The notes beneath the pieces were generated by a model. The model was not told the DNA's origin, did not search any database, and worked only from the letters and a program-made list of their open reading frames with translations. The position numbers and the translations under genes were made by a program. From contig CAKPZJ010000009.1 in the NCBI GenBank assembly GCA_934204655.1, positions 1 through 64,000 on the forward strand: a DNA stretch of 64,000 nt. Direction: 5' to 3'. This stretch comes from an uncultured Prevotella sp. (lineage in GTDB: Bacteria > Bacteroidota > Bacteroidia > Bacteroidales > Bacteroidaceae). Below are positions 1,784 to 14,019 of this stretch, in pieces. How positions within the stretch are numbered: the stretch's first letter is position 1; every line of letters starts with the position of its first letter.

Positions 1784-3820
1784 ATGCGTATCGGCAGAAT
1801 TATCATGCTCGTCATCCTTATAGGGCAAGCCCTCACCATAAGTGGACAGCAGAATGTTAGGCACGACATTCTGCTGCTTGACCGGATTTGCCAATACAGG
1901 AACCAGATAGACACGAGCATGGCCCGGAGCACCCAGACGTATGCCTACCGAAAGTTCGGCCTCAACGTAATACGTCGCAACATCACGCTCTTCCCCATTC
2001 CCACCATGTACCGCATCGCCCACAGCAAGAATCGCCGTTATATAGAGGAGAGCTACGAATTATTCAGCCATAAAAGTACTTACGACTTTGACGCGACACG
2101 TATAGCCCACCTGTCGACCATACCACAGCACAAGCAGACCATGACACGACTGCAGAAATTCCTTGCTCCAAAGTTCTACGAGGAAACGATATTCGGCTCC
2201 AACGTGTTATCACCTTTCTGCAAGGTTAACCGGGTGTTCTACCGTTACCATTTCAAGTACCTATATAATAATAAGGTAGACATAACGTTCTGGCCCAAGG
2301 TAAAAAACACCCAGCTGGTGTATGGCAATGCCACCGTAGACGCTGGCACAGGCCGCATCATAAACGGCAAGATACGAGGCGAGTTCGACATGATAAAGTT
2401 TGCCTTGACATTCACCATGGGCGACAGTGGCATCTATTCCCTATTTCCTACACGGTGTACTCTTAATTCCAAGTTTGAGTTCCTCGGGAATATTATACAA
2501 GCCTCTAACGTAGCCGCTTATGGTCTGCCTAAAGTTCAGGCTGACTCGCTTGCCGCCAACCCTCAGGAGCAACAGATAGCAGCAGTAAGATGTGACAGCC
2601 TCACAGCTGATGAGCAGCAGCTATATGCTGCCTACTACCACAACGACCAGTCCGACAGCACCACGAACGCTCCCAAGAAGCGTGGTTGGGCTAAGCGGTT
2701 TTTCTGGGATGTCCTTGGCGACAACCTGCTCAACAAGATTACCTCCAGCTATGGTGCCGCCAATCAGGGGTATGTACGTATCAACCCCCTGTTTAATCCC
2801 CTGTACATGGGTTATAGCGGCCACAAGGGCTATTACTATAAGTTTGACATCCGCACTACCTATACATTTTCTAATAATAGCTACCTGTACACCCGGTTCA
2901 AAGCCGGCTACTCGTTCAAGCAGCGCCACCTATATTATACCATCCCCTTTGAATATCACTTTGACCGTCGGCGCAATGGATATATCGAGCTACGTTTCAG
3001 CAATGGCAACTGGGTACGTAACGGTGCCCTAAAAGACGAGCTATTAAGTCAGTTCCCCGATACAGCTACCTATAATGATGAACGCCTGAGCTATTTCAGG
3101 GACCTTAACCTCAGCCTGTTAGGCAGCTATGACCTCAATCCTCACATCACCTTACAGGCCGGGATTGTAGCCCACCGCCGTACAGCTGTCGAGCAGGGTG
3201 CCTACCATCAGGCAGGCCTACGCACCTCGTATTACTCTGTAGCCCCCAAGGCCGAGGTTATCTGGCGACCTATGGGCCGTCATGGTCCAGCCATCAATGC
3301 GGCCTACGAACGTAGCATACGCGGGCTGGCCAATGCCGACATAGCCTATGAGCGCTGGGAGTTTGACCTGCAACATATCATAGCCCTCAACCGGTTACGC
3401 TATCTCTCGCTACGGGCTGGCGGCGGTTTCTACACGCTACGCGATGGCAGCAAGTACTTTTTGGACTACACCAACTTCCGCGATAACAACATCCCTGATG
3501 GCTGGAATGATGAGTGGACAGGTGAGTTCAGCCTCTTAGGCAGCCAGTGGTACAACCTGTCGCGCTACTACGTACGTTCCAACATCACCTACGAGACTCC
3601 CCTACTCGCCCTAAGCCGCCTGCCATGGATAGGGCACTTCATTGAGAAAGAACGCATTTACAGCAACATACTGGTAGTTACTCACCTACATCCGTACATC
3701 GAGGTGGGCTATGGGCTGACAACGCGCTGGCTATCGGCAGGCCTGTTTGTAGCCAACCGCAATGGCCGTTATGACGGCATCGGAGTGAAAGTAGGATTAG
3801 AACTCTTTAGACAATGGTAA
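1784..3820 (+). CDS. DUF5686 family outer-membrane beta-barrel protein
   Basis: 678 residues with a Sec signal peptide (MRIGRIIMLVILIGQALTIS then GQQ). The first part carries DUF5686 features: a periplasmic domain with a TGRIINGKIRGEFDM-like strand (about residues 187-205) and MGDSG, followed from about residue 320 by alternating aromatic/polar strands typical of a beta-barrel ending in W. Relatives often have an N-terminal carboxypeptidase-regulatory-like domain; this one does not. Molecular function is unknown; family members are thought to be outer-membrane proteins. Its last 7 bases overlap the addA-like gene, so the two are probably co-translated. A TAAGTTTG -7-like box (1769-1776) lies only 7 bases before the ATG; an internal ATG at 1805 is an alternative start. 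Confidence 0.8.
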   Translation: MRIGRIIMLVILIGQALTISGQQNVRHDILLLDRICQYRNQIDTSMARSTQTYAYRKFGLNVIRRNITLFPIPTMYRIAHSKNRRYIEESYELFSHKSTYDFDATRIAHLSTIPQHKQTMTRLQKFLAPKFYEETIFGSNVLSPFCKVNRVFYRYHFKYLYNNKVDITFWPKVKNTQLVYGNATVDAGTGRIINGKIRGEFDMIKFALTFTMGDSGIYSLFPTRCTLNSKFEFLGNIIQASNVAAYGLPKVQADSLAANPQEQQIAAVRCDSLTADEQQLYAAYYHNDQSDSTTNAPKKRGWAKRFFWDVLGDNLLNKITSSYGAANQGYVRINPLFNPLYMGYSGHKGYYYKFDIRTTYTFSNNSYLYTRFKAGYSFKQRHLYYTIPFEYHFDRRRNGYIELRFSNGNWVRNGALKDELLSQFPDTATYNDERLSYFRDLNLSLLGSYDLNPHITLQAGIVAHRRTAVEQGAYHQAGLRTSYYSVAPKAEVIWRPMGRHGPAINAAYERSIRGLANADIAYERWEFDLQHIIALNRLRYLSLRAGGGFYTLRDGSKYFLDYTNFRDNNIPDGWNDEWTGEFSLLGSQWYNLSRYYVRSNITYETPLLALSRLPWIGHFIEKERIYSNILVVTHLHPYIEVGYGLTTRWLSAGLFVANRNGRYDGIGVKVGLELFRQW

Positions 3821-6800
3821 ACAAGACTATCCCCCTGACTGTGTACAAGGCCAGCGCCGGATCGGGCAAGACCTTTACGCTGGCCATAGAGTATATCAAA
3901 CTGGTCATCAAGAACCCTGCATGCTACAGGAATATCCTGGCCGTAACCTTTACCAACAAGGCGACCGAGGAGATGAAGACACGCATACTGACACAGCTCT
4001 ATGGGCTGTGGAAGCAGCTTCCCTCATCGCAAGTCTATATGGATCAGGTGACAGCAGCATTAGGATTTGCACCCGCCATGGTAGCGGCTCAGGCCGGAGA
4101 GGCCCTGAAACTGCTGTTACATAACTATAACTATTTCCGAGTAGAGACTATCGATACATTCTTCCAGAGTGTACTGCGCAACATGGCTCGCGAATTAGAC
4201 CTAACGGCCAACCTACGCATAGGGCTTAACGACTATCAGGTAGAGGAACAGGCTGTAGACGAGCTCATAGAGAACCTGAACGTACAGGACAAGGTTTTTG
4301 GCTGGATAATGCAGTATGTCAAGGAAAACATATCCGAGGACAAAGGCTGGAACGTAATAGGGCTCATCAAGCGGTTTGGCAAAAATATTTTCAGCAACAT
4401 ATACCGTGAAAATAGCAAGGCCATTAACCAGGTATTGAGCCAGCAGGGATTTTTCAGTCAATATACTCAGACGCTACAGTCTATCCGCACCAATGCCCTG
4501 AACAAACTGAACCACTACGTGGCGTTCTTCTTTGACACCCTGGAAGAAAACGGACTCGAGATAAGCGACTTCAGCCGCGGGCGAACGGGAGTTTGCGGCT
4601 ACTTTATCAAACTGAGGGATGGCAAGTACAGCGATAAGGACGTGCTGACCAAGACGGTGTTAGACGCGATGGAAGATGCCGGAAAATGGGTAAAGGCCGC
4701 AGACCGTAAAGCCGGCAATGTGGCCTACGAGCTGGTCAATGATGTACTGATGGCCCATCTGAATGAGACCGAGCGCGTTCGCCGTCAACAGGTGGGACTC
4801 TATCAAAGTGCGGAACTCACCCTGAAGCATCTAAATCAGCTTAGGCTACTGGAAAACATCGAGAAGACGGTACGCGAGATGAACGAGGACGCTAACCGTT
4901 TCCTCCTAAGCGACACTCAGCACCTGCTTAACGCCATTATCCAGGACAGCGACTCTCCCTTTGTATTCGAGAAGATAGGCGCTCACTTGAACCACATTAT
5001 GATAGATGAGTTCCAGGACACCAGCACTATCCAATGGAAAAATTTCAGGGTGCTGCTGCAAGAGTGCATGAGCCATGAAGACGACACCAACCTCATCGTA
5101 GGCGATGTAAAGCAGAGTATATACCGTTGGCGCTCGGGCGACTGGCGGCTGCTGAACAATATAGAGGGTGAGTTTGCCCATGCTACCGACATGGTACAGG
5201 TCAAGTCGCTGATAACCAACTACCGCTCATTGCGCAATGTCATCGAGTTCAATAACGCCTTTTTCACCCTGGCCACCAAGACCGAGTATGGCCAACTGGA
5301 GGATAACGAGGAGGCACAGCAACTGGTCAGGGCTTATGCCGATGTACGGCAGATCCCCGGAAAGCAGGCTATGGAAGGTCATATAGAGGTAGAGCTGATG
5401 CCCAAGCAAGACTATCAGGAGCAGATAATGACCCGCATAGCCGACACGATAGACTCACTGTTACAGAGAGGTTTTTCCGCCAACAGCATAGCCATCCTGT
5501 GCCGCAGCAAGTCTACCATCCAGGAGATAGCAGACTACTTTAGTGAGAACCGGACAGACTTGCCGCTTATATCTGACGAAGCCTTCCGGCTGGACTCCTC
5601 CGAGGCTGTTAATACCATCATCAGCAGTCTACGTTTCATAGCTAACCCGACCGACAAAATAGAGCGGGCTTTCTTAGAGAAGGTGGGAATGGCCGATGTC
5701 ATCGAACGCGACCGTGACAACCTACTCGGCATGCCACTTTACAACCTGGTGCAGCACATCTATGGCATACTCGACAAGAGCCATATACAGCATCAGAGTG
5801 CCTATCTGCTGGACTTTTTTGACCGTCTAAGCACCTTCTTAGCCGACAGCATGCCCGACATCAACGATTTCTTAGACGAATGGGACAATAATCTGCATGA
5901 GAAGACTATCCAGAGCAACGAGGCCGACGGCATCAGACTTATTACCATCCACAAGAGTAAGGGGTTAGAGTTTGACCACGTCATCCTGCCCGCCTGTGAC
6001 TGGGCTTTAGAAAAGACGGGGACTACCCTATGGTGTACACCCACGATAGAGCCATTCAACCAGATGCCCCTGGTGCCGATAGACTTTAGCAAGAACGCCA
6101 TGACGGGTACCATCTATGAAGCCGATTACCACCATGAGCATCTACAGAACGTGGTGGACAACCTGAACCTACTCTATGTGGCGTTTACCCGGGCCAAGAA
6201 GAGCCTATATATATATGGTAAAAGGGGCACGGCCCTGATGCGGTCCAAATTGATAGAGGATATCATGGAGCCACTGGCCAACCAGCTTGGGGGAACCTAC
6301 ACAGGAGATGCCGCCGACCGCAACAGCACTCTGTGCTTAGACTATGGCGAGCTGCCCATAGTTCATGAAGCTGGGCAGGCGACCAACCGGGAAACCGAGA
6401 ATGTATTCAGGCATACGGCAGAAGCCATCGGCATACAGGAACTAAGCATATCGGCGCCCAAAGCAACATTCAGACAAAGTAATAAGAGCCAGGAGTTCCT
6501 GGAGGACACCGAGGACGACGACAAGGCCAGATACATTAAGACCGGAAGCCTGTTACACAAAGTGTTCTCCATGATAAAGACCGCAGAGGACATAGAGGGT
6601 GCCCTGGCCGAACTGGAAGGCGAGGGGCTCATCTATGACAGCGAGCTGAAGAGAGACAAACTGATAGCCATGCTACGTAGCCGGTTAGAGAATGAGAAAG
6701 TCCGCGACTGGTTCTCTGACCGCTGGACAGTGTACAACGAACAGACCATCCTGCATATAGACCCCGTGACTAACAGCGTTGTCCAACTGCGTCCTGACCG

Positions 6801-6975
6801 TGTCATTACCGATGGCAATCAGTATATCGTCATTGATTTTAAGTTCGGCCGGTCGCGCCCAGAGTATCAGGCTCAGATCCGGGGCTACATAGACCAACTG
6901 CGCCAGATGGGACACACCCAGGTAAAGGGTTACCTGTGGTTTGTTTATAGTAACCAAATAGAGGAAGTAAGATGA
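3814..6975 (+). CDS. addA: AddA-like UvrD/Rep helicase-nuclease (exonuclease V beta-type subunit)
   Basis: ATP-dependent helicase and nuclease subunit of a double-strand-break processing complex. Visible motifs: Walker A ASAGSGKTF (about residue 13), Walker B MIDEFQDTS (about 395), GDVKQSIYRWR (about 430), motif V IHKSKGLEFDHV (about 709), motif VI YVAFTRAKKSL (about 786), and a C-terminal PD-(D/E)XK nuclease with RPDRV...VIDFKFGR...Q (about 990-1030). At 1053 residues it is close to Bacteroidetes RecB/AddA-like proteins. It overlaps the upstream barrel gene by 7 bases and the addB-like gene by 4 (ATGA), which points to translational coupling. The exact subgroup (AddA versus another RecB-like type) is inferred. 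Confidence 0.93.
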   Translation: MVNKTIPLTVYKASAGSGKTFTLAIEYIKLVIKNPACYRNILAVTFTNKATEEMKTRILTQLYGLWKQLPSSQVYMDQVTAALGFAPAMVAAQAGEALKLLLHNYNYFRVETIDTFFQSVLRNMARELDLTANLRIGLNDYQVEEQAVDELIENLNVQDKVFGWIMQYVKENISEDKGWNVIGLIKRFGKNIFSNIYRENSKAINQVLSQQGFFSQYTQTLQSIRTNALNKLNHYVAFFFDTLEENGLEISDFSRGRTGVCGYFIKLRDGKYSDKDVLTKTVLDAMEDAGKWVKAADRKAGNVAYELVNDVLMAHLNETERVRRQQVGLYQSAELTLKHLNQLRLLENIEKTVREMNEDANRFLLSDTQHLLNAIIQDSDSPFVFEKIGAHLNHIMIDEFQDTSTIQWKNFRVLLQECMSHEDDTNLIVGDVKQSIYRWRSGDWRLLNNIEGEFAHATDMVQVKSLITNYRSLRNVIEFNNAFFTLATKTEYGQLEDNEEAQQLVRAYADVRQIPGKQAMEGHIEVELMPKQDYQEQIMTRIADTIDSLLQRGFSANSIAILCRSKSTIQEIADYFSENRTDLPLISDEAFRLDSSEAVNTIISSLRFIANPTDKIERAFLEKVGMADVIERDRDNLLGMPLYNLVQHIYGILDKSHIQHQSAYLLDFFDRLSTFLADSMPDINDFLDEWDNNLHEKTIQSNEADGIRLITIHKSKGLEFDHVILPACDWALEKTGTTLWCTPTIEPFNQMPLVPIDFSKNAMTGTIYEADYHHEHLQNVVDNLNLLYVAFTRAKKSLYIYGKRGTALMRSKLIEDIMEPLANQLGGTYTGDAADRNSTLCLDYGELPIVHEAGQATNRETENVFRHTAEAIGIQELSISAPKATFRQSNKSQEFLEDTEDDDKARYIKTGSLLHKVFSMIKTAEDIEGALAELEGEGLIYDSELKRDKLIAMLRSRLENEKVRDWFSDRWTVYNEQTILHIDPVTNSVVQLRPDRVITDGNQYIVIDFKFGRSRPEYQAQIRGYIDQLRQMGHTQVKGYLWFVYSNQIEEVR

Positions 6976-9833
6976 AAAAGAATTTCTTAGAATACGTAGC
7001 TCACGACCTGATAGCCAAATACGGCTGTAACTTATCTCGCATAGCCGTGGTGTTCCCCAATAAGCGCGCCTCGCTCTTCATGAACGAATACCTGGCCCGC
7101 GAGGCCCGTCAGCCGATGTGGAGCCCAGCCTATATCACCATCAGCGAACTGTTCAGGGACAAGTCGGCCCTAACCGTGGCCGACCCCATCAAGCAGGTGT
7201 GCGACTTGTACCGCTCATTCACCACGATTACCGGGAGCACGGAGTCCTTGGACCACTTCTATGGATGGGGGCAACTACTGTTGGCCGACTTTGACGATAT
7301 AGACAAGAACATGGCCGATGCCCATCAGGTCTTTGCCAACCTGAAGGACATTCACGAGCTGGACAACGTGGACTATCTGAACCAAGACCAGCGCGATATT
7401 CTGAAAAATTTCTTCAGCAATTTCAGCGATGACCATACCTCGGAACTCAAGAAGCGCTTCCTGTCACTGTGGTGCCACTTTGAAGATATTTATCACGACT
7501 TCAACCAGCGGTTAGAGCAGCAGGGGCTGGCCTATGAGGGTGCCCTGTACCGCCGGGTGGCCGAAGATGACGAGGCCCAGTACACTTACGATGCCTATGT
7601 GTTCGTGGGGTTCAACGTACTACAACAGGTAGAGTGCCAGCTGTTTCGCCGGCTCCAGCAGATGGGCAAGGCGCACTTCTACTGGGACTTCGACAATTAT
7701 TATCTGTCGGGCAATGAGGCTGGGCACTACATCAATAAATATCTCTATGAGTTTGGCAACGAGTTAGACAATGACAACGCTGAGCTATATAACAACCTGA
7801 GCGCTGAGAAGGACATCACCTATATAGCATCGACCACCGAGAGTGCCCAGGCACATTACATTACCTCCTGGATCAAAGCCAACGGGCGCATAGCTGCCGG
7901 ACGCAAAACAGCCATTGTACTCTGTGACGAGTCGCTGCTACAGACTGTTATTCACTGTCTGCCTCCCGAGGTTACCAAGGTTAACATTACCACAGGCTAT
8001 CCGCTGGCCCAGTCGCCCGTAGCTTCTCTGGTACAACTGCTGTTAAGTCTGCAAAACTTTGGAAGGGTTCGCGGCACCGATAAATACCGTCTCCACGAAG
8101 TTAGTAAGGCTCTCCAGCATCCCTATATGCGCTTCTTGTCGGACCAGTGTACCGACCTGGTAAGCCGACTGCAACAGTACAAGTGCTACTACCCCACCCG
8201 CAGACAGCTAAGTGCTGACGATGGGCTGGCCCTGCTCTTCAGCGATATTGAAGAACGCTGCGAGGACTATAATCTGAGTACATCGCAATGGATACTGGAC
8301 CTGCTGAAACTGATAGGGCATAATGCGTTGGCCGAGAAAGATGCCTTACGCCAGGAGTCTATATTCAGAATGTACATGGTGATAAACCGCCTGTCATCGC
8401 TCATTGCCTCGGGCGACCTGACGGTAGACCGCATCACTTTCGAGCGACTTGTTACCCAACTCATACAGTCTACTACCATTCCCTTTCATGGCGAGCCGGC
8501 CGAGGGAATACAGATTATGGGTGTGCTGGAAACCCGTAACCTGGACTTTGACCACATCCTGGTTCTGTCGGCCTCAGAGGGCAATATGCCCAAAGGCACG
8601 AACGATGCCTCGTTTATCCCCTACTCGATACGCAAGGCTTACGGCCTGACTACGATAGACAACAAGGTGGCCATATATGCCTACTACTTTCACAGGCTCC
8701 TTCAGAGAGCTACCGACATAACCCTGACATACAACCATGCCACTGAGGAAGGGCACACGGGCGAGATGAGCCGGTTTATGATTCAGTTTATGGTAGAGAG
8801 TGCCCACACCATCAAGCATAAGACGCTGATGCCGGAGCAGACTTTCACCAGGCGGCACCCCGTAGCCATTGAGAAATCAGCCGAAGTGATAAGCCGGCTT
8901 GACAGTATTGACAGCCTGTCGCCTACAGCCATCAACCGCTATCTGTATTGTCCTCTCACATTTTATTATAATGTAATCCAGAAAATTAAAGAGCCTGATG
9001 AGAGCGATGAGGACTTGATAGATAACCGTGTCTTCGGCAATATCTTCCACCGCAGTGCCGAACTGATATATAGCCCATTTGTACAAAGTGGGCAGAAAGT
9101 ACTGGGCGAGGACATAGAGCAACTGCTAAAACATGGCGAACGGATAGAGATGATAGTAGATCAGGCTTTTCGCGAACTACTGTTCAAGGTTGATGAAAGC
9201 GGTTATATCCCTGAGTACAACGGTCTGCAGCTTATCAACCGTGGAGTCATCATCAGCTATCTACGCAAGTTGCTTGAGATAGACCACAAACTAACTCCGT
9301 TCCGCATATTGGGATTGGAAAAACGGGTAGAAACCACCATTCAGATAGATACGCCCACCGGTGTGCGTCCCCTCAACCTCTATGGGTTCATAGACCGGCT
9401 CGATGAGGTAACCGACAGTGCCGGCCAGCGTATCAGGGTGATAGACTACAAGACCGGGCGGCTGGCTACCAAGCGTGTGACCACTATAGGCGAGCTATTC
9501 ACTGGCGAGGACTATCAGGAGAAGCACACCAACTATTATCTGCAGGCCACCCTATATGCCCTGATAGTAAGCCATGAACAGACGATTAACGACTTGCGCC
9601 TCCCGGTAAGTCCGGCCCTGATATTCATCCAGCATACTTCCGCCAATGAATATGACCCTACCCTGCTGTTAGACCGGGATAAGATGGTAAGGGCTACCGA
9701 TTTCGAGCAAGAGTTTGACCAGGGACTTAAACGGGTGCTGCAACAGATATTCGACCCATCCCAGCCTTTCAGCCCTACTCCGCATAGGGAACGCTGCGCC
9801 AACTGTGTGTACCGCAATCTGTGCCACCAGTGA
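6972..9833 (+). CDS. addB: AddB-like PD-(D/E)XK nuclease, partner of AddA
   Basis: Second subunit of the recombination nuclease. The N-terminal half is a degenerate helicase-like fold (VVFPNKRASLFMNEYLA, residues 26-42). The C-terminal half carries the nuclease motif VIDYKTGR (about 824) with an upstream D in YGFIDRLDE and a downstream Q (NYYLQATLYA). One Cys before the nuclease (YCPLTFYY, about 660) and three at the very end (CANCVYRNLC) match the four ligands of the AddB-type 4Fe-4S cluster that clasps the nuclease domain. Start ATG overlaps the addA stop as ATGA. The 3' end runs into the attenuator region of the aromatic operon. Confidence 0.9.
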   Translation: MKKNFLEYVAHDLIAKYGCNLSRIAVVFPNKRASLFMNEYLAREARQPMWSPAYITISELFRDKSALTVADPIKQVCDLYRSFTTITGSTESLDHFYGWGQLLLADFDDIDKNMADAHQVFANLKDIHELDNVDYLNQDQRDILKNFFSNFSDDHTSELKKRFLSLWCHFEDIYHDFNQRLEQQGLAYEGALYRRVAEDDEAQYTYDAYVFVGFNVLQQVECQLFRRLQQMGKAHFYWDFDNYYLSGNEAGHYINKYLYEFGNELDNDNAELYNNLSAEKDITYIASTTESAQAHYITSWIKANGRIAAGRKTAIVLCDESLLQTVIHCLPPEVTKVNITTGYPLAQSPVASLVQLLLSLQNFGRVRGTDKYRLHEVSKALQHPYMRFLSDQCTDLVSRLQQYKCYYPTRRQLSADDGLALLFSDIEERCEDYNLSTSQWILDLLKLIGHNALAEKDALRQESIFRMYMVINRLSSLIASGDLTVDRITFERLVTQLIQSTTIPFHGEPAEGIQIMGVLETRNLDFDHILVLSASEGNMPKGTNDASFIPYSIRKAYGLTTIDNKVAIYAYYFHRLLQRATDITLTYNHATEEGHTGEMSRFMIQFMVESAHTIKHKTLMPEQTFTRRHPVAIEKSAEVISRLDSIDSLSPTAINRYLYCPLTFYYNVIQKIKEPDESDEDLIDNRVFGNIFHRSAELIYSPFVQSGQKVLGEDIEQLLKHGERIEMIVDQAFRELLFKVDESGYIPEYNGLQLINRGVIISYLRKLLEIDHKLTPFRILGLEKRVETTIQIDTPTGVRPLNLYGFIDRLDEVTDSAGQRIRVIDYKTGRLATKRVTTIGELFTGEDYQEKHTNYYLQATLYALIVSHEQTINDLRLPVSPALIFIQHTSANEYDPTLLLDRDKMVRATDFEQEFDQGLKRVLQQIFDPSQPFSPTPHRERCANCVYRNLCHQ

Positions 9834-9901
9834 CGAGATGGCCACCAGCCTGCAGGAGAACCTCTATAATAAGGTAAAGATTAAAAAAAACTGACGAAAT
9901 G

Positions 9902-9933
9902 TTTGCATAAGTCATCGGAAAGTTATACTTTTG
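9902..9933 (+). promoter_or_regulatory. Promoter of the aromatic amino acid operon
   Basis: TTTG (-33, 9902-9905), 20-base spacer, TACTTTTG (-7, 9926-9933): an exact match to the Bacteroidetes housekeeping promoter. The transcript would begin near 9940, about 20 bases before the leader peptide ATG. Confidence 0.85.
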
Positions 9934-9960
9934 CAACATAAACGAGCAATAAACAAGAAA

Positions 9961-10038
9961 ATGGTAGCAATGAACGCATACTTTTACGGCTTTTACTTTT
10001 ACTTTGCAAGCGATTGTGAAGCGGGAAGTTGCGTGTAA
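9961..10038 (+). CDS. Phe/Tyr-rich attenuator leader peptide
   Basis: A 25-codon open frame (in-frame ATGs at 9961 and 9970) that encodes NAYFYGFYFYF: eight of nine consecutive codons (9979-10005) are Phe or Tyr, four of each, all TTT or TAC. It ends in a TAA at 10036 that lies just past one arm of the antiterminator. It is positioned between the promoter and the terminator, directly ahead of the Phe/Tyr biosynthesis operon. Its role is inferred to be that of a sensing leader peptide like those of classic phe and trp attenuators; the peptide itself needs no further function. Confidence 0.88.
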   Translation: MVAMNAYFYGFYFYFASDCEAGSCV

Positions 10039-10104
10039 TTTCAACTTAGGATATAAACATTAATCGTAAATCCCGCTTCAATATATAATTGGAGCGGGAT
10101 TTTT
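10017..10104 (+). promoter_or_regulatory. Antiterminator/terminator switch of the Phe/Tyr attenuator
   Basis: Two exclusive 10-bp pairings share the arm at 10071-10077. Antiterminator: TGAAGCGGGA (10017-10026) with TCCCGCTTCA (10071-10080). Terminator: AAATCCCGCT (10068-10077) with AGCGGGATTT (10093-10102). A ribosome stalled on the Phe/Tyr codons (9979-10005) would leave 10017-10026 free to form the antiterminator; a ribosome reaching the stop codon would cover it and allow termination. Both pairings are seen directly; the mechanism is inferred from classic attenuators. Confidence 0.85.
10068..10104 (+). terminator. Conditional terminator of the attenuator
   Basis: Perfect 10-bp stem AAATCCCGCT / AGCGGGATTT with a 15-base loop, ending in five T. 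It sits 18 bases before pheA, so it must be conditional for the operon to be expressed. Confidence 0.88.
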
Positions 10105-10122
10105 ACTTAAACAGAGATATAC

Positions 10123-10953
10123 ATGAAAAGAGTAGCGATACAGGGCGTGATAGGGTCGTTCCACGATATAGCAGCGCATCAGTACTTTGCGGGTGAGCAG
10201 TTACAGGTTATCTGCTGTTCGACCTTTGAGCAGATTTTCGAGAATATCAAGAGCGACCCTACTGTCATAGGCTTCCTGGCCATAGAGAACACCATCGCTG
10301 GGTCGCTGCTACACAACTATGAGCTGCTACGCTCGTCGGGCACCACCATCGTTGGCGAGCATCGGCTACACATCCAGCACGCCATCTGCTGCCTGCCCGA
10401 CGATGACTGGAGTACCATCCACGAAGTGCAGTCTCATCCCGTGGCCCTCATGCAATGCCGCAACTTCTTAGCCAACCATCCCGAGCTCAAAGCTGTTGAA
10501 GGCGAAGACACGGCAGGAAGTGCCGAGTACATCAGCAGGCAGCAGTGCCATGGCTGGGCTGCCATCTGCCATGCTGACGCAGCCCGCATGTATGGCATGA
10601 AGGTACTCGAAGACCATATTGAGGACAACAAGCACAACTTTACACGCTTCCTGGTGGTATGCAATCCACACAAAGCCGATTTTCTGCGGCCTTTGGCCAA
10701 GGCCAACAAGTCGAGCCTGGTCTTCTCGCTGCCTCACGAGGAGGGAAGTCTGTCCAAGGTGCTTACCATCTTGTCCTTTTACGACATCAACCTGACCAAG
10801 ATACAGTCCCTGCCCGTCATTGGGCACGAATGGGAGTACCTGTTCTACGTAGATGTAACGTTCGACAGTATTACTCGTTATCGCCAGGCGATTGATGCCA
10901 TCATTCCACTTACCAAAGAACTTAAAATAATCGGAGAATATGAACAACATTAA
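10123..10953 (+). CDS. pheA: Prephenate dehydratase
   Basis: Converts prephenate to phenylpyruvate, the committed step to phenylalanine. 276 residues: catalytic domain with GVIGSFHDIAA at the start, the AIENTIAGS motif (residues 51-59) and the NFTRFLVV motif with the catalytic Thr (about 171), then a C-terminal ACT domain (GSLSKVLTILSFYDINLTKI, about 207-226) that in the family senses phenylalanine. The canonical ESRP of the ACT loop reads QSLP here. There is no chorismate mutase domain; that activity is supplied by the fusion protein two genes downstream. It overlaps the aminotransferase gene by 14 bases. First gene after the attenuator. Confidence 0.94.
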   Translation: MKRVAIQGVIGSFHDIAAHQYFAGEQLQVICCSTFEQIFENIKSDPTVIGFLAIENTIAGSLLHNYELLRSSGTTIVGEHRLHIQHAICCLPDDDWSTIHEVQSHPVALMQCRNFLANHPELKAVEGEDTAGSAEYISRQQCHGWAAICHADAARMYGMKVLEDHIEDNKHNFTRFLVVCNPHKADFLRPLAKANKSSLVFSLPHEEGSLSKVLTILSFYDINLTKIQSLPVIGHEWEYLFYVDVTFDSITRYRQAIDAIIPLTKELKIIGEYEQH

Positions 10954-12112
10954 ACCTGCAGACCGTATTGGCTCGGTACAGGAGTACTATTTCAGCCGCA
11001 AACTGAAGGAAGTAGCTCAGCTCAATGCCGAGGGAAAAGATATTATAAGCCTGGCCATAGGAAGCCCAGACCAGCCCCCATCGCCACAGACCATCGAGAA
11101 ACTATGCGCCGTGGCACATGAGGCCAGCGCCCATGGCTACCAGCCCACTATGGGCATACCCGAGCTACGCCAAGCCATGGCCCACTTCTACCACAAGTGG
11201 TATGGAGTGGATGTAGACCCAGCCAAAGAGATTCAGCCACTTATCGGCAGCAAGGAGGGTATCCTGCATATCACGCTGGCATTTGTCAACCCAGGTGACG
11301 AGGTGCTTGTCCCAGACCCAGGGTACCCTACCTACACTTCACTGAGCAAGATTTTGGGAGCCAAGATTGTCAACTACAATCTGTCGGCCGACAACGGATG
11401 GCAACCCGACTTTGACGAGCTGGAGGGACGCGACCTATCGAAAGTTAAACTCATGTGGACCAATTACCCCAACATGCCTACCGGTGGCGATGCACGTATG
11501 GAGACCTACCGACGCCTGGTCGATTTTGCCAAACGCCACCATATTGTCGTGGTTAATGACAACCCCTATTCCTTTATCCTCAACGAGCATCCCATCTCAC
11601 TGCTCCAGGTTGAGGGAGCTAAGGATTGTTGTATCGAACTCAACTCCATGTCCAAGGGCTTCAACATGCCCGGATGGCGCGTAGGCATGTGCGTGTCCAA
11701 TCCACAGTTTATCAGTTGGATACTCAAAATCAAGAGCAACATAGACAGCGGCACTTTCCGCGGATTGCAGTTGGCTGCCGCCGAGGCGCTTACCACCAAC
11801 GACGAGGAATGGCATCGCGAATATAATATTAATGTCTACCGCCGTCGCCGGGACATTGCCGAGAAAATTATGCAGACCTTAGGCTGTACCTACGACCCCA
11901 AGCAGGTTGGTATGTTCCTCTGGGCCAAAATTCCTGATAAATATACAGATGCCGAACAGCTTACAGAGCGTGTACTGCACGAGGCTCGGGTATTTATCAC
12001 CCCCGGTTTCATTTTCGGAAACAATGGCCGGCGGTATGTGCGCATCTCTCTCTGCGCCCAGGACGACAAGATGCGAGAGGCGCTGCATCGTATCGCAGCA
12101 TTAGAATGGTAA
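10940..12112 (+). CDS. PLP-dependent class I/II aminotransferase (probably aromatic)
   Basis: 390-residue fold-type I aminotransferase. Visible: GSPDQPP near the N-terminus, QPTMGIPELRQA (about 62-73), PDPGYPTY (122-129), NYPNMPTGG (175-183), PYSFI after the cofactor Asp-like region, and the PLP Lys in ELNSMSKGFNMPGWRVG (Lys about 239). Position between prephenate dehydratase and DAHP synthase suggests it makes Phe and Tyr from their 2-oxoacids, or transaminates prephenate; related enzymes are also annotated as LL-diaminopimelate or aspartate aminotransferases, so the substrate is inferred from context only. Starts 14 bases inside pheA. Confidence 0.85.
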   Translation: MNNIKPADRIGSVQEYYFSRKLKEVAQLNAEGKDIISLAIGSPDQPPSPQTIEKLCAVAHEASAHGYQPTMGIPELRQAMAHFYHKWYGVDVDPAKEIQPLIGSKEGILHITLAFVNPGDEVLVPDPGYPTYTSLSKILGAKIVNYNLSADNGWQPDFDELEGRDLSKVKLMWTNYPNMPTGGDARMETYRRLVDFAKRHHIVVVNDNPYSFILNEHPISLLQVEGAKDCCIELNSMSKGFNMPGWRVGMCVSNPQFISWILKIKSNIDSGTFRGLQLAAAEALTTNDEEWHREYNINVYRRRRDIAEKIMQTLGCTYDPKQVGMFLWAKIPDKYTDAEQLTERVLHEARVFITPGFIFGNNGRRYVRISLCAQDDKMREALHRIAALEW

Positions 12113-12153: not shown

Positions 12154-13218
12154 ATGGAATTAGATCTTAGCCCATTAAACTTGCCCAGTGATAACGAACG
12201 TCCACTGGTTATAGCAGGCCCCTGCTCGGCCGAAACAGAAGAACAGGTAATGACAACAGCTCGCCAGTTGGCCGAAAAGGGATGCCATAACTTTAGGGCT
12301 GGTATATGGAAGCCCCGCACCAAACCAGGTGGTTTTGAGGGCAAGGGCGAAGAAGCGCTGCCATGGTTGCAGCGTGTGAAGAAAGAGACCGGCATGCTGG
12401 TATCTACCGAGGTGGCCAAACCAGAGCACGTAGAACTGTGCCTGAAGTACGGCATTGACATTCTGTGGATAGGCGCCCGCACCACAGCCAATCCCTTTGC
12501 CATGCAAGACCTGGCCGATGCCCTCAAGGGGACTGACATCCCCGTGTTTGTGAAGAACCCCGTAAATCCCGACCTCGAACTATGGATAGGAGCTATGGAG
12601 CGTATCAACCAGGCTGGCATCAAGCGCATGGCTGCCATACATCGCGGCTTCTCCAGTTTTGATAAAAAGATTTACCGCAACCTCCCCATGTGGCAAATTC
12701 CTATGGAACTACATCGCCGCATCCCCAACCTCCCCATTATCTGCGACCCCAGTCACATTGGCGGCCGTCGCGAGCTGATAGCTCCCCTGTGCCAGCAAGC
12801 TATGGATTTAGGTTTCGACGGCTTAATAGTAGAGAGCCACTGCTCGCCAGATGAAGCGTGGAGCGATGCCAAGCAACAGGTTACCCCCGAAGTGTTAGAC
12901 TATATTTTAAGTTTGCTTATTGTGAGAGACGAACATATTACTACCGAAGGCATCAATATGTTGCGCAAGCAGGTAGACGAATTGGATAACGAGTTGATGA
13001 ACCTTCTGTCTAAGCGCATGCGTGTATGCCGCGAGATAGGCCAGTACAAGAAAGAGCACAATATGACCGTGTTCCAGGCCAACCGCTACTCGGAAATTCT
13101 GGATAAGCGCGGAGCTCAGGGAAGCCTCTTGGGCATGTCGCCCGAGTTCATCGCCCAGGTTTTTGAGAGCGTACACGAGGAGAGCGTACGCCAGCAGGTG
13201 GAAATCATCAACCATTAA
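12154..13218 (+). CDS. aroG-aroQ fusion: Bifunctional DAHP synthase / chorismate mutase
   Basis: First enzyme of the shikimate pathway fused to the branch-point mutase. Residues about 1-250 are a KDSA-like class I-beta DAHP synthase (VIAGPCSAET at 20-29, RAGIWKPRTKPGGFEG at 50-65, GARTTANPFAMQ, CDPSHIGGRRE, VESHCSPDEAWSDAKQQ). Residues about 265-354 are an AroQ-type chorismate mutase (MLRKQVDELDNELMNLLSKR and the following VCREIGQYKK). The fusion is standard in Bacteroidetes, and elsewhere the mutase domain is known to make the synthase prephenate-sensitive. It lies 41 bases after the aminotransferase gene, within the same operon. Confidence 0.94.
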   Translation: MELDLSPLNLPSDNERPLVIAGPCSAETEEQVMTTARQLAEKGCHNFRAGIWKPRTKPGGFEGKGEEALPWLQRVKKETGMLVSTEVAKPEHVELCLKYGIDILWIGARTTANPFAMQDLADALKGTDIPVFVKNPVNPDLELWIGAMERINQAGIKRMAAIHRGFSSFDKKIYRNLPMWQIPMELHRRIPNLPIICDPSHIGGRRELIAPLCQQAMDLGFDGLIVESHCSPDEAWSDAKQQVTPEVLDYILSLLIVRDEHITTEGINMLRKQVDELDNELMNLLSKRMRVCREIGQYKKEHNMTVFQANRYSEILDKRGAQGSLLGMSPEFIAQVFESVHEESVRQQVEIINH

Positions 13219-13242: not shown

Positions 13243-14019
13243 ATGAAGATATTGATCTTGGGAGCAGGTAAGATGGGGAGCTTCTTCATCGACCTGCTCA
13301 GTTTCGACCACGAGGTGGCTGTTTATGAGAAGGATGCACGCCGCATGCGATTTACGTACAACTGCCAACGATTTACGACCCTCGATGAAATCAAGGAATT
13401 TGCCCCCGAATTGCTCATCAATGCCGTCACGGTAAAATATACCATCCCCGCATTTTGCGAAGTGATGCCCTATCTGCCCAAGGACTGCATCCTGAGCGAC
13501 ATCAGTTCGGTAAAGACCGGGCTCAAGGAGTTTTACGAGAGTACACACCATCGCTACGTCTCCACACACCCCATGTTCGGCCCTACCTTTGCCAATCTCA
13601 ATCAGCTCTCCGAAGAGAACGCTATTATCATTAGCGAGGGCGACTACATGGGCCGCATCTTCTACAAGGATATCTACACCCAGCTGGGCCTGAACATCTA
13701 CGAATATACTTTCGAGGAACACGACAAGACGGTTGCTTACTCTCTCAGCATCCCATTCGTAAGCACCTTTGTCTTTGCAGCCGTGATGAAACACCAGGAT
13801 GCGCCCGGTACGACCTTCAAACGCCACATGCAGATAGCCAAAGGTGTGCTGAGTGAGGATGATTATCTCTTGCAGGAGATTCTCTTCAACCCTTACACCC
13901 ACGACCAGGTTGCCCAGATACGCAGCGAACTGAAAGAGCTGTTATCCATCATAGACAACCGCGACGCAGAGGGTATGAAGCGTTATCTTACCAAGATACG
14001 CAAGAATGTAAACGAATAA
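13243..14019 (+). CDS. tyrA: Prephenate dehydrogenase
   Basis: NAD-dependent oxidative decarboxylation of prephenate to 4-hydroxyphenylpyruvate for tyrosine. 258 residues: N-terminal Rossmann motif ILGAGKMGSFF (residues 4-14), DISSVK (about 87-92) and the THPMFGPTF substrate-site motif (about 106-114), then the helical dimer domain. Compared with stand-alone TyrA enzymes that carry a C-terminal ACT domain it is short, so feedback control probably acts through PheA, DAHP synthase and the attenuator. 24 bases separate it from the fusion gene. Confidence 0.92.
   Translation: MKILILGAGKMGSFFIDLLSFDHEVAVYEKDARRMRFTYNCQRFTTLDEIKEFAPELLINAVTVKYTIPAFCEVMPYLPKDCILSDISSVKTGLKEFYESTHHRYVSTHPMFGPTFANLNQLSEENAIIISEGDYMGRIFYKDIYTQLGLNIYEYTFEEHDKTVAYSLSIPFVSTFVFAAVMKHQDAPGTTFKRHMQIAKGVLSEDDYLLQEILFNPYTHDQVAQIRSELKELLSIIDNRDAEGMKRYLTKIRKNVNE

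Follow-up and report, generated by a model that had tools for sequence, protein, structure and literature searches.

The arrangement upstream of pheA in an uncultured Prevotella sp. is best read, by far, as a ribosome-mediated attenuator that would read charged tRNA-Phe and charged tRNA-Tyr together and thereby set the expression of a pheA-aminotransferase-DAHP synthase/chorismate mutase-tyrA operon, a reading to which we assign a probability of roughly 0.88 because of the anatomy of the site and its conservation in relatives. The site lies within a stretch of 64,000 nucleotides, the whole of which is referred to here as the window. If the reading holds, a single switch would link the supply of Phe and Tyr to an entire branch of the aromatic pathway in gut bacteria, and the comparison of relatives suggests that such ribosome-sensing, coupled control of Phe/Tyr operons is widespread among bacteria that are not known to initiate translation at Shine-Dalgarno sites. 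The leader also bears on how tightly transcription is tied to translation in Bacteroidales, and on whether the coupling suffices for control of this type. The elements of the site are the following.

9902..9933, + strand: promoter, with TTTG at 9902-9905 and TATACTTTTG at 9924-9933
9961..10038, + strand: leader ORF of 25 codons plus TAA, peptide MVAMNAYFYGFYFYFASDCEAGSCV
9979..10005, + strand: control codons YFYGFYFYF, leader codons 7-15, eight of nine Phe/Tyr
10017..10026, + strand: arm A, 5' strand of the antiterminator, within the leader ORF, tgaagcggga
10071..10080, + strand: arm B, tcccgcttca, shared as partner of A (antiterminator) or of C (terminator)
10068..10102, + strand: terminator hairpin of 15 pairs (10068-10082 with 10088-10102; RNAfold), T run at 10100-10104

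What the leader encodes, the arm common to both stems, its distance from the aromatic codons, the promoter and the adjacent genes are supported by the DNA sequence and by comparison with relatives, and the promoter, the 25-codon leader, its eight Phe/Tyr codons in nine and the shared central arm, as given in a preliminary description of this DNA, were borne out base by base. Arms A and B are perfectly complementary over 10 bases, and aaatcccgct (10068-10077) is complementary to agcgggattt (10093-10102) on the arm C side. RNAfold gives -21.2 kcal/mol for the terminator and -18.8 for the antiterminator duplex; measured against 200 dinucleotide shuffles, one of which folded equally well, the 182 nt of 9941-10122 have a folding z of -3.78, and their minimum-energy fold includes the terminator. 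Among ORFs of up to 60 codons that start with ATG on either strand of the 64-kb window, the leader (with two nested starts) is the sole one with at least 7/9 Phe/Tyr. A mechanical terminator scan left the hairpin at 10068-10102 off its list because it needs 5 T in the 8 positions past the stem and most of the T run is here paired. As to the promoter, which had been called full-consensus, the site at 9902-9933 fits what we take to be the Bacteroidetes-type -33/-7 pattern, TTTG and TATACTTTTG being the elements assigned to it, whereas against the sigma-70 consensus it scored just 9/12 in a mechanical scan; sigma-70-like sites around the leader are near chance (11 versus 7.8 expected).

From this layout, leader translation, ribosome stalling, termination and a response to Phe and Tyr may be predicted. 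RNA polymerase would start some 20 nt 5' of the leader, judging by the promoter, with a ribosome trailing behind it. Were Phe or Tyr scarce, the ribosome would stall in the aromatic run with its front edge just short of arm A; A would then pair with newly made B, B:C would be blocked and transcription would continue. Were both plentiful, the ribosome would reach the stop codon and cover A, allowing B:C to form and transcription to end near 10104.

The genes that would come under this control run in one direction.

10123..10953, + strand: pheA, prephenate dehydratase (PF00800, E 1e-52; ACT part below the Pfam cut-off)
10940..12112, + strand: class I/II aminotransferase, best against LL-diaminopimelate aminotransferase models, below their cut-offs
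12154..13218, + strand: DAHP synthase fused to chorismate mutase (PF00793, PF01817)
13243..14019, + strand: tyrA-like prephenate dehydrogenase (PF02153)

Ahead of these genes stands a short ORF with an excess of codons for the end products of the operon. The aminotransferase (10940-12112) likely has an aromatic role, judged by gene position only. The neighbourhood is largely retained: of the Prevotellaceae-type loci, some of them truncated, all 80 have the aminotransferase, 74 have the DAHP synthase and 70 have tyrA. Directly 3' of tyrA lies a gene of the endonuclease/exonuclease/phosphatase family (PF19580, 14035-14988, listed with a GTG start), which may belong to the same operon. On the upstream side, 3814-9833 holds two large genes, a UvrD/AddA-type helicase frame (recognised by eye) and an AddB-like PD-(D/E)XK nuclease.

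The check that had been proposed for the attenuator, namely conservation in relatives, was run and mainly passed: the leader ORF, its Phe and Tyr codons, the arm common to both stems and the geometry are encountered again in Bacteroidales at large and in part outside the order. The Prevotellaceae-type set comprises 80 pheA loci retained out of 481 relatives, taken from species-representative genomes of Prevotella, Prevotellaceae, Hallella, Hoylesella, Leyella or Bacteroidales. An ATG leader with at least 6/9 Phe/Tyr lies within 320 nt in 77/80 of these loci, and when Trp is also counted and 500 nt upstream are scanned a leader precedes pheA in 78/80; the two misses are L050, cut by a contig end with the leader's final part kept, and L037, which has none. 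A second set was drawn from 198 genomes of the same order as that of L001, 80 of which had a pheA match, 79 once L001's own was excluded. There, 65/79 loci have a leader ORF rich in Phe/Tyr(Trp) ahead of pheA and 14/79 have none, three of the latter (L112, L145, L156) being contig-cut at or inside pheA. Dinucleotide-shuffled upstream regions reach 6/9 Phe/Tyr in 0.7% of cases, compared with 64/78 observed loci, a comparison that excludes L112, with its 15 nt of upstream sequence, and retains L145 and L156, whose upstream regions are lost at a contig end. Beyond the order, a leader stands in 22 of 39 further Bacteroidota loci, in forms that include FYFSNSFYFFF, and not in the other 17; these are distinct loci hand-picked among the matches listed (215 genomes with a match), mostly frames of about 280 aa, so that 22/39 is not a random-sample rate. 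None of the 30 best PF00800 matches of a phylum sample, mostly GC-rich, has a leader, and these presumably belong to other classes. Between leader and first gene, a terminator was recognised for 175 of 181 leaders and for six it was not.

These counts bear on a trivial account of the site, in which the hairpin would do no more than end transcription of the addB-like gene upstream, the ORF being a chance frame. The hairpin does lie just 235 nt past the stop of that gene. Against this, the Bacteroidetes-type promoter pattern occurs 5' of 65/78 leaders, that of the window among them, versus 0.5% in mononucleotide shuffles; chance frames of this kind arise in the 0.7% of shuffles just mentioned; and the arms match their leaders genome by genome. 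We therefore reject the stray terminator as extremely improbable.

The codons bear on whether the amino acids, or just T-rich DNA, are under selection. Among 175 complete units, 172 carry both Phe and Tyr codons, three have Phe without Tyr, and 32 contain Trp; Prevotellaceae-type units average 4.7 Tyr versus 3.7 Phe. Codon -3 encodes Tyr in 76 of the 79 Prevotellaceae-type leaders, by TAC in 39 and by TAT in 37; Phe or Tyr, now one and now the other, predominates at codons -4 and -7; and the amino acids of the control run are kept despite synonymous change at several upstream codons. The final two control codons are fixed at the nucleotide level, being TAC TTT in 79/79 leaders (10000-10008 in the window, including the next codon), and that next codon, GCA, does not vary among the 63 rows of the alignment described below; synonymous forms occur further up. 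One might suppose that Phe only, or mainly, is read, the Tyr codons serving as spacing or sharing the U-richness, in which case Tyr starvation would be without effect. The three units that lack Tyr, eight Flavobacteriaceae-like units with one Tyr versus four Phe, and the Phe-only pheA leaders of enterobacteria would agree with this; the co-occurrence of both codons in 172/175 units, the excess of Tyr in Prevotellaceae-type leaders, Tyr at codon -3 in 76/79 through two different codons and at codon -1 in 79/79, and the presence of tyrA in the operon all speak against it, and we regard it as improbable, though less so than any other alternative considered here.

Prevotellaceae-type leader peptides are moreover very similar to each other (FYFYFA.NCEAGSCV), a likeness that would suit nascent-peptide arrest, in which one particular peptide would block the exit tunnel and its aromatic residues would act as sensor. 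Outside the family, however, aromatic richness is retained while order and C-terminal part vary, and within it the conserved C-terminal codons overlap arm A and the small hairpin P1 (see below) and have in part disappeared from some relatives. On these points arrest was rejected, and we deem it very improbable.

The pairing of the arms was followed in a wide set of 100 units, 99 of them from L082-L229 together with the window. Own A:B duplexes average -13.1 kcal/mol, versus -8.3 with arms swapped between genomes and -4.5 for arm B against a control of 45 nt 5' of the leader; in 95/100 units the own duplex is stronger than the average over 20 swaps, and an ungapped Watson-Crick stem of at least 6 is formed by 73/100 own pairs versus 16.6% of swapped ones, p-values for such comparisons being inflated because the genomes are related. 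The cores amount to 53 distinct strings, many of them shifted or trimmed variants of each other, and the eight Flavobacteriaceae-like units have weak A:B pairing (-5.5 to -9.4). Within Prevotellaceae, arm A is almost invariant. Alignment A1 comprises 63 of the 79 Prevotellaceae-type leaders, the window included, and leaves out 13 leaders without an intact R2 (a segment considered below), L022 and L057, for which no terminator was recognised, and, arbitrarily, L069. In its 62 distinct rows, two-sided change occurs in five at one A:B pair, in three at one P1 pair and in five at one terminator pair, that is, at 1/10 A:B pairs and 1/8 terminator pairs. Pairing cells reach 95.3% in both structures, versus at most 53.1% with one side slid. 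The count of cells with two-sided change exceeds that of shuffles (0/500 reach it), and the count of pairs with such change does not, 44/500 (P1 counted too) and 343/500 shuffles reaching it. The expectation of compensatory change thus stood in part: in the wide set an antiterminator that shares the terminator's arm and co-varies with it is seen, its arms matched genome by genome, whereas change inside Prevotellaceae is slight.

The position of arm A relative to the aromatic run is equally constrained. Counted from the first base of the final aromatic codon, arm A begins 8-16 nt further on in 91/100 units of the wide set (median 13, sd 2.9; median 12 in the Prevotellaceae-type set), versus 22% with this spacing and an sd of 11.8 in mononucleotide-shuffled regions; the stop codon lies anywhere from 5' of A to well 3' of it. 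A ribosome covers 18 nt behind its A-site codon. Ahead of that codon the footprint is 12 nt (PMC4833913), and the spacing of arm A, which agrees with this edge, would be about one ribosome edge. With an 18/12-nt footprint, mean coverage of arm A would rise from 9-13% with the ribosome on the last aromatic codon to 77-80% with it on the stop, and units in which the arm is at most 20% covered by the stalled ribosome and at least 50% covered at the stop number 68/76 in the Prevotellaceae-type set and 64/100 in the wide set, the window being in both; arm A would be more than half free at the stop in 19/100 wide units. That stalling should free A and finishing the leader cover it, as had been claimed from the window alone, fits the geometry of most units in these sets.

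Two further elements overlap the leader.

9973..10035, + strand: candidate protector pairing R1:R2, AACGCA 9973-9978 with TGCGTG 10030-10035, weakly supported
10026..10047, + strand: small hairpin P1 with the stop codon in its loop, AAGTTG 10026-10031 with CAACTT 10042-10047

In Prevotellaceae, 93.6% of R1:R2 cells pair and none shows compensatory change; the base 5' of the GCN codon is C in 53/65 leaders with an intact R2 and in 5/13 without. P1 is nearly invariant in Prevotellaceae, with compensated changes in two lineages, and was not found in 11 loci. The leader end GSCV is lost in L043, L054, L061, L065, L066, L068, L070, L071, L074 and L076; all ten keep the aromatic run, 9/10 a recognised terminator, and in nine of the ten (L071 aside) P1 was not found. 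A second, variable hairpin between P1 and arm B, P2, was dropped, since its mean z against shuffles was -0.54 over 53 loci and nothing of it was seen in the window.

The leader of the E. coli trp operon has a separate 1:2 protector, or anti-antiterminator. No conserved counterpart was found in the wide set, where arm A pairs with the 5' part of the leader at -6.1 kcal/mol versus -5.7 when shuffled and more strongly than shuffled in 45/100 units. With three arms, the ribosome alone would counter the antiterminator, and an untranslated leader would read through by default, the opposite of E. coli trp, where an untranslated leader gives superattenuation.

A structured leader (z -3.78) might also suggest a metabolite riboswitch or a T-box governing the operon, with the ORF incidental. 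In the window and 12 relatives, however, no Rfam family is found at gathering score, leader, T-box and riboswitch models included, and by eye the wide set shares no sequence or fold past the three arms, for which reasons both were rejected as exceedingly unlikely. When E values up to 10 are admitted, a single leader family is listed for 9880-10140, Trp_leader, at 13.7 of 41 bits. The Bacteroid-trp motif RF01692, a putative cis-regulatory leader likewise from Bacteroidetes (PMC2864571), gives no match there at that threshold and stays below gathering score in the window and the 12 relatives.

The putative Phe/Tyr attenuator is a variant, in its reading of Phe and Tyr, its tandem occurrence (described below) and its three-arm form, of a kind of system that is already known. 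The pheA (pheL) and trp leaders of enterobacteria are the classic cases of ribosome-mediated attenuation, and share with the Bacteroidota unit a small ORF crowded with codons for the amino acid under control, an arm common to antiterminator and terminator, and a biosynthetic operon downstream; they differ from it in that pheL is Phe-only, in that the Bacteroidota unit would take Phe and Tyr together, sets arm A at the ribosome edge, is tandem in some lineages and belongs to a phylum not known to use Shine-Dalgarno sites, and in that no conserved separate protector arm was found in the wide set. Joint reading was said to be unlike the enterobacterial leaders, which is so for Phe-only leaders, and yet reading two amino acids in one leader has precedent. 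The E. coli thr and ilv leaders each read more than one amino acid, though other ones and in another phylum. To judge from its name, the Leu/phe leader of Lactococcus (RF01743) also does so, again with different amino acids and in a different phylum. Ribosome-mediated attenuation has been described in general terms for pheA of Shewanella and others (PMC2659441); a survey of Actinobacteria reports Phe or Tyr operons there to be without a conserved element (PMC1262725), and a 2010 survey of premature terminators, which held leader peptides to be unshown outside Proteobacteria and Actinobacteria and added Firmicutes, has no word starting with "bacteroid" in its main text (PMC2965389).

Attenuation had further been called little described in Bacteroidetes, and the record is indeed sparse without being blank. 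Besides RF01692, a map of B. thetaiotaomicron notes sORFs reminiscent of leader peptides (PMC7366714), and a Flavobacterium psychrophilum transcriptome reports leader-peptide clues 5' of amino-acid operons together with a conserved 5' element before pheA (PMC9723704). The latter resembles the present case in gene, phylum, leader-peptide clues and its reported occurrence in other Flavobacteriaceae genera; it differs in that, supplements aside, it gives no leader sequence, Tyr content, order-wide conservation or tandem form (PMC9723704). In the open-licence literature, supplements aside, we found no description of a Phe/Tyr leader at pheA in Bacteroidales.

In some lineages the unit occurs twice. 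Two complete units precede pheA in 15/79 Bacteroidales loci (L082, L086, L090, L092, L094, L095, L132, L133, L134, L140, L143, L150, L151, L153 and L155), 0/80 Prevotellaceae-type loci and 0/39 further loci, as counted over a span of about 500 nt that longer arrays could escape. The second leader starts 5-53 nt past the first terminator, and none of the 15 has a full promoter pattern anywhere from the first aromatic run to the start codon of the second leader, so that read-through of the first unit is the simplest route to the second. Each arm B pairs preferentially within its own unit, at -13.0 kcal/mol with its own region versus -7.9 with that of the other unit, the own pairing being stronger in 29/30 comparisons, with one unit of L155 as the single exception; a variant in which arm A was pre-cut for optimal pairing with its own B (own -13.0, cross -7.2, 28/30) is biased, and the whole regions are preferred. 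On a PheA tree of 85 rows, built by a quick method, the tandem state needs nine changes, at least five of them forced by well-supported branches, and has therefore been gained or lost repeatedly. Tandem attenuators that respond to signals other than the present ones precede the Salmonella mgtCBR operon. That case likewise has two short leader ORFs before one operon, the operon being a different one (PMC3641672). As two units stand in series, polymerase must pass both, and the arrangement would be expected to sharpen or deepen repression. We advance as a tentative proposal, held with somewhat less than even confidence, that Bacteroidia use a three-arm attenuator in which the ribosome alone opposes the antiterminator, and that several lineages have placed two Phe/Tyr units, with arms that match each other poorly, in series for a multiplicative, steeper response.

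The natural tandem forms, the arm losses and the diversity of arm sequences offer ready-made comparisons. Among the leaders without a recognised terminator are L071, which by eye has no right-hand arm, and L022 and L057, whose hairpins, again by eye, are not followed by a good T run, and these three are natural candidates for relaxed control.
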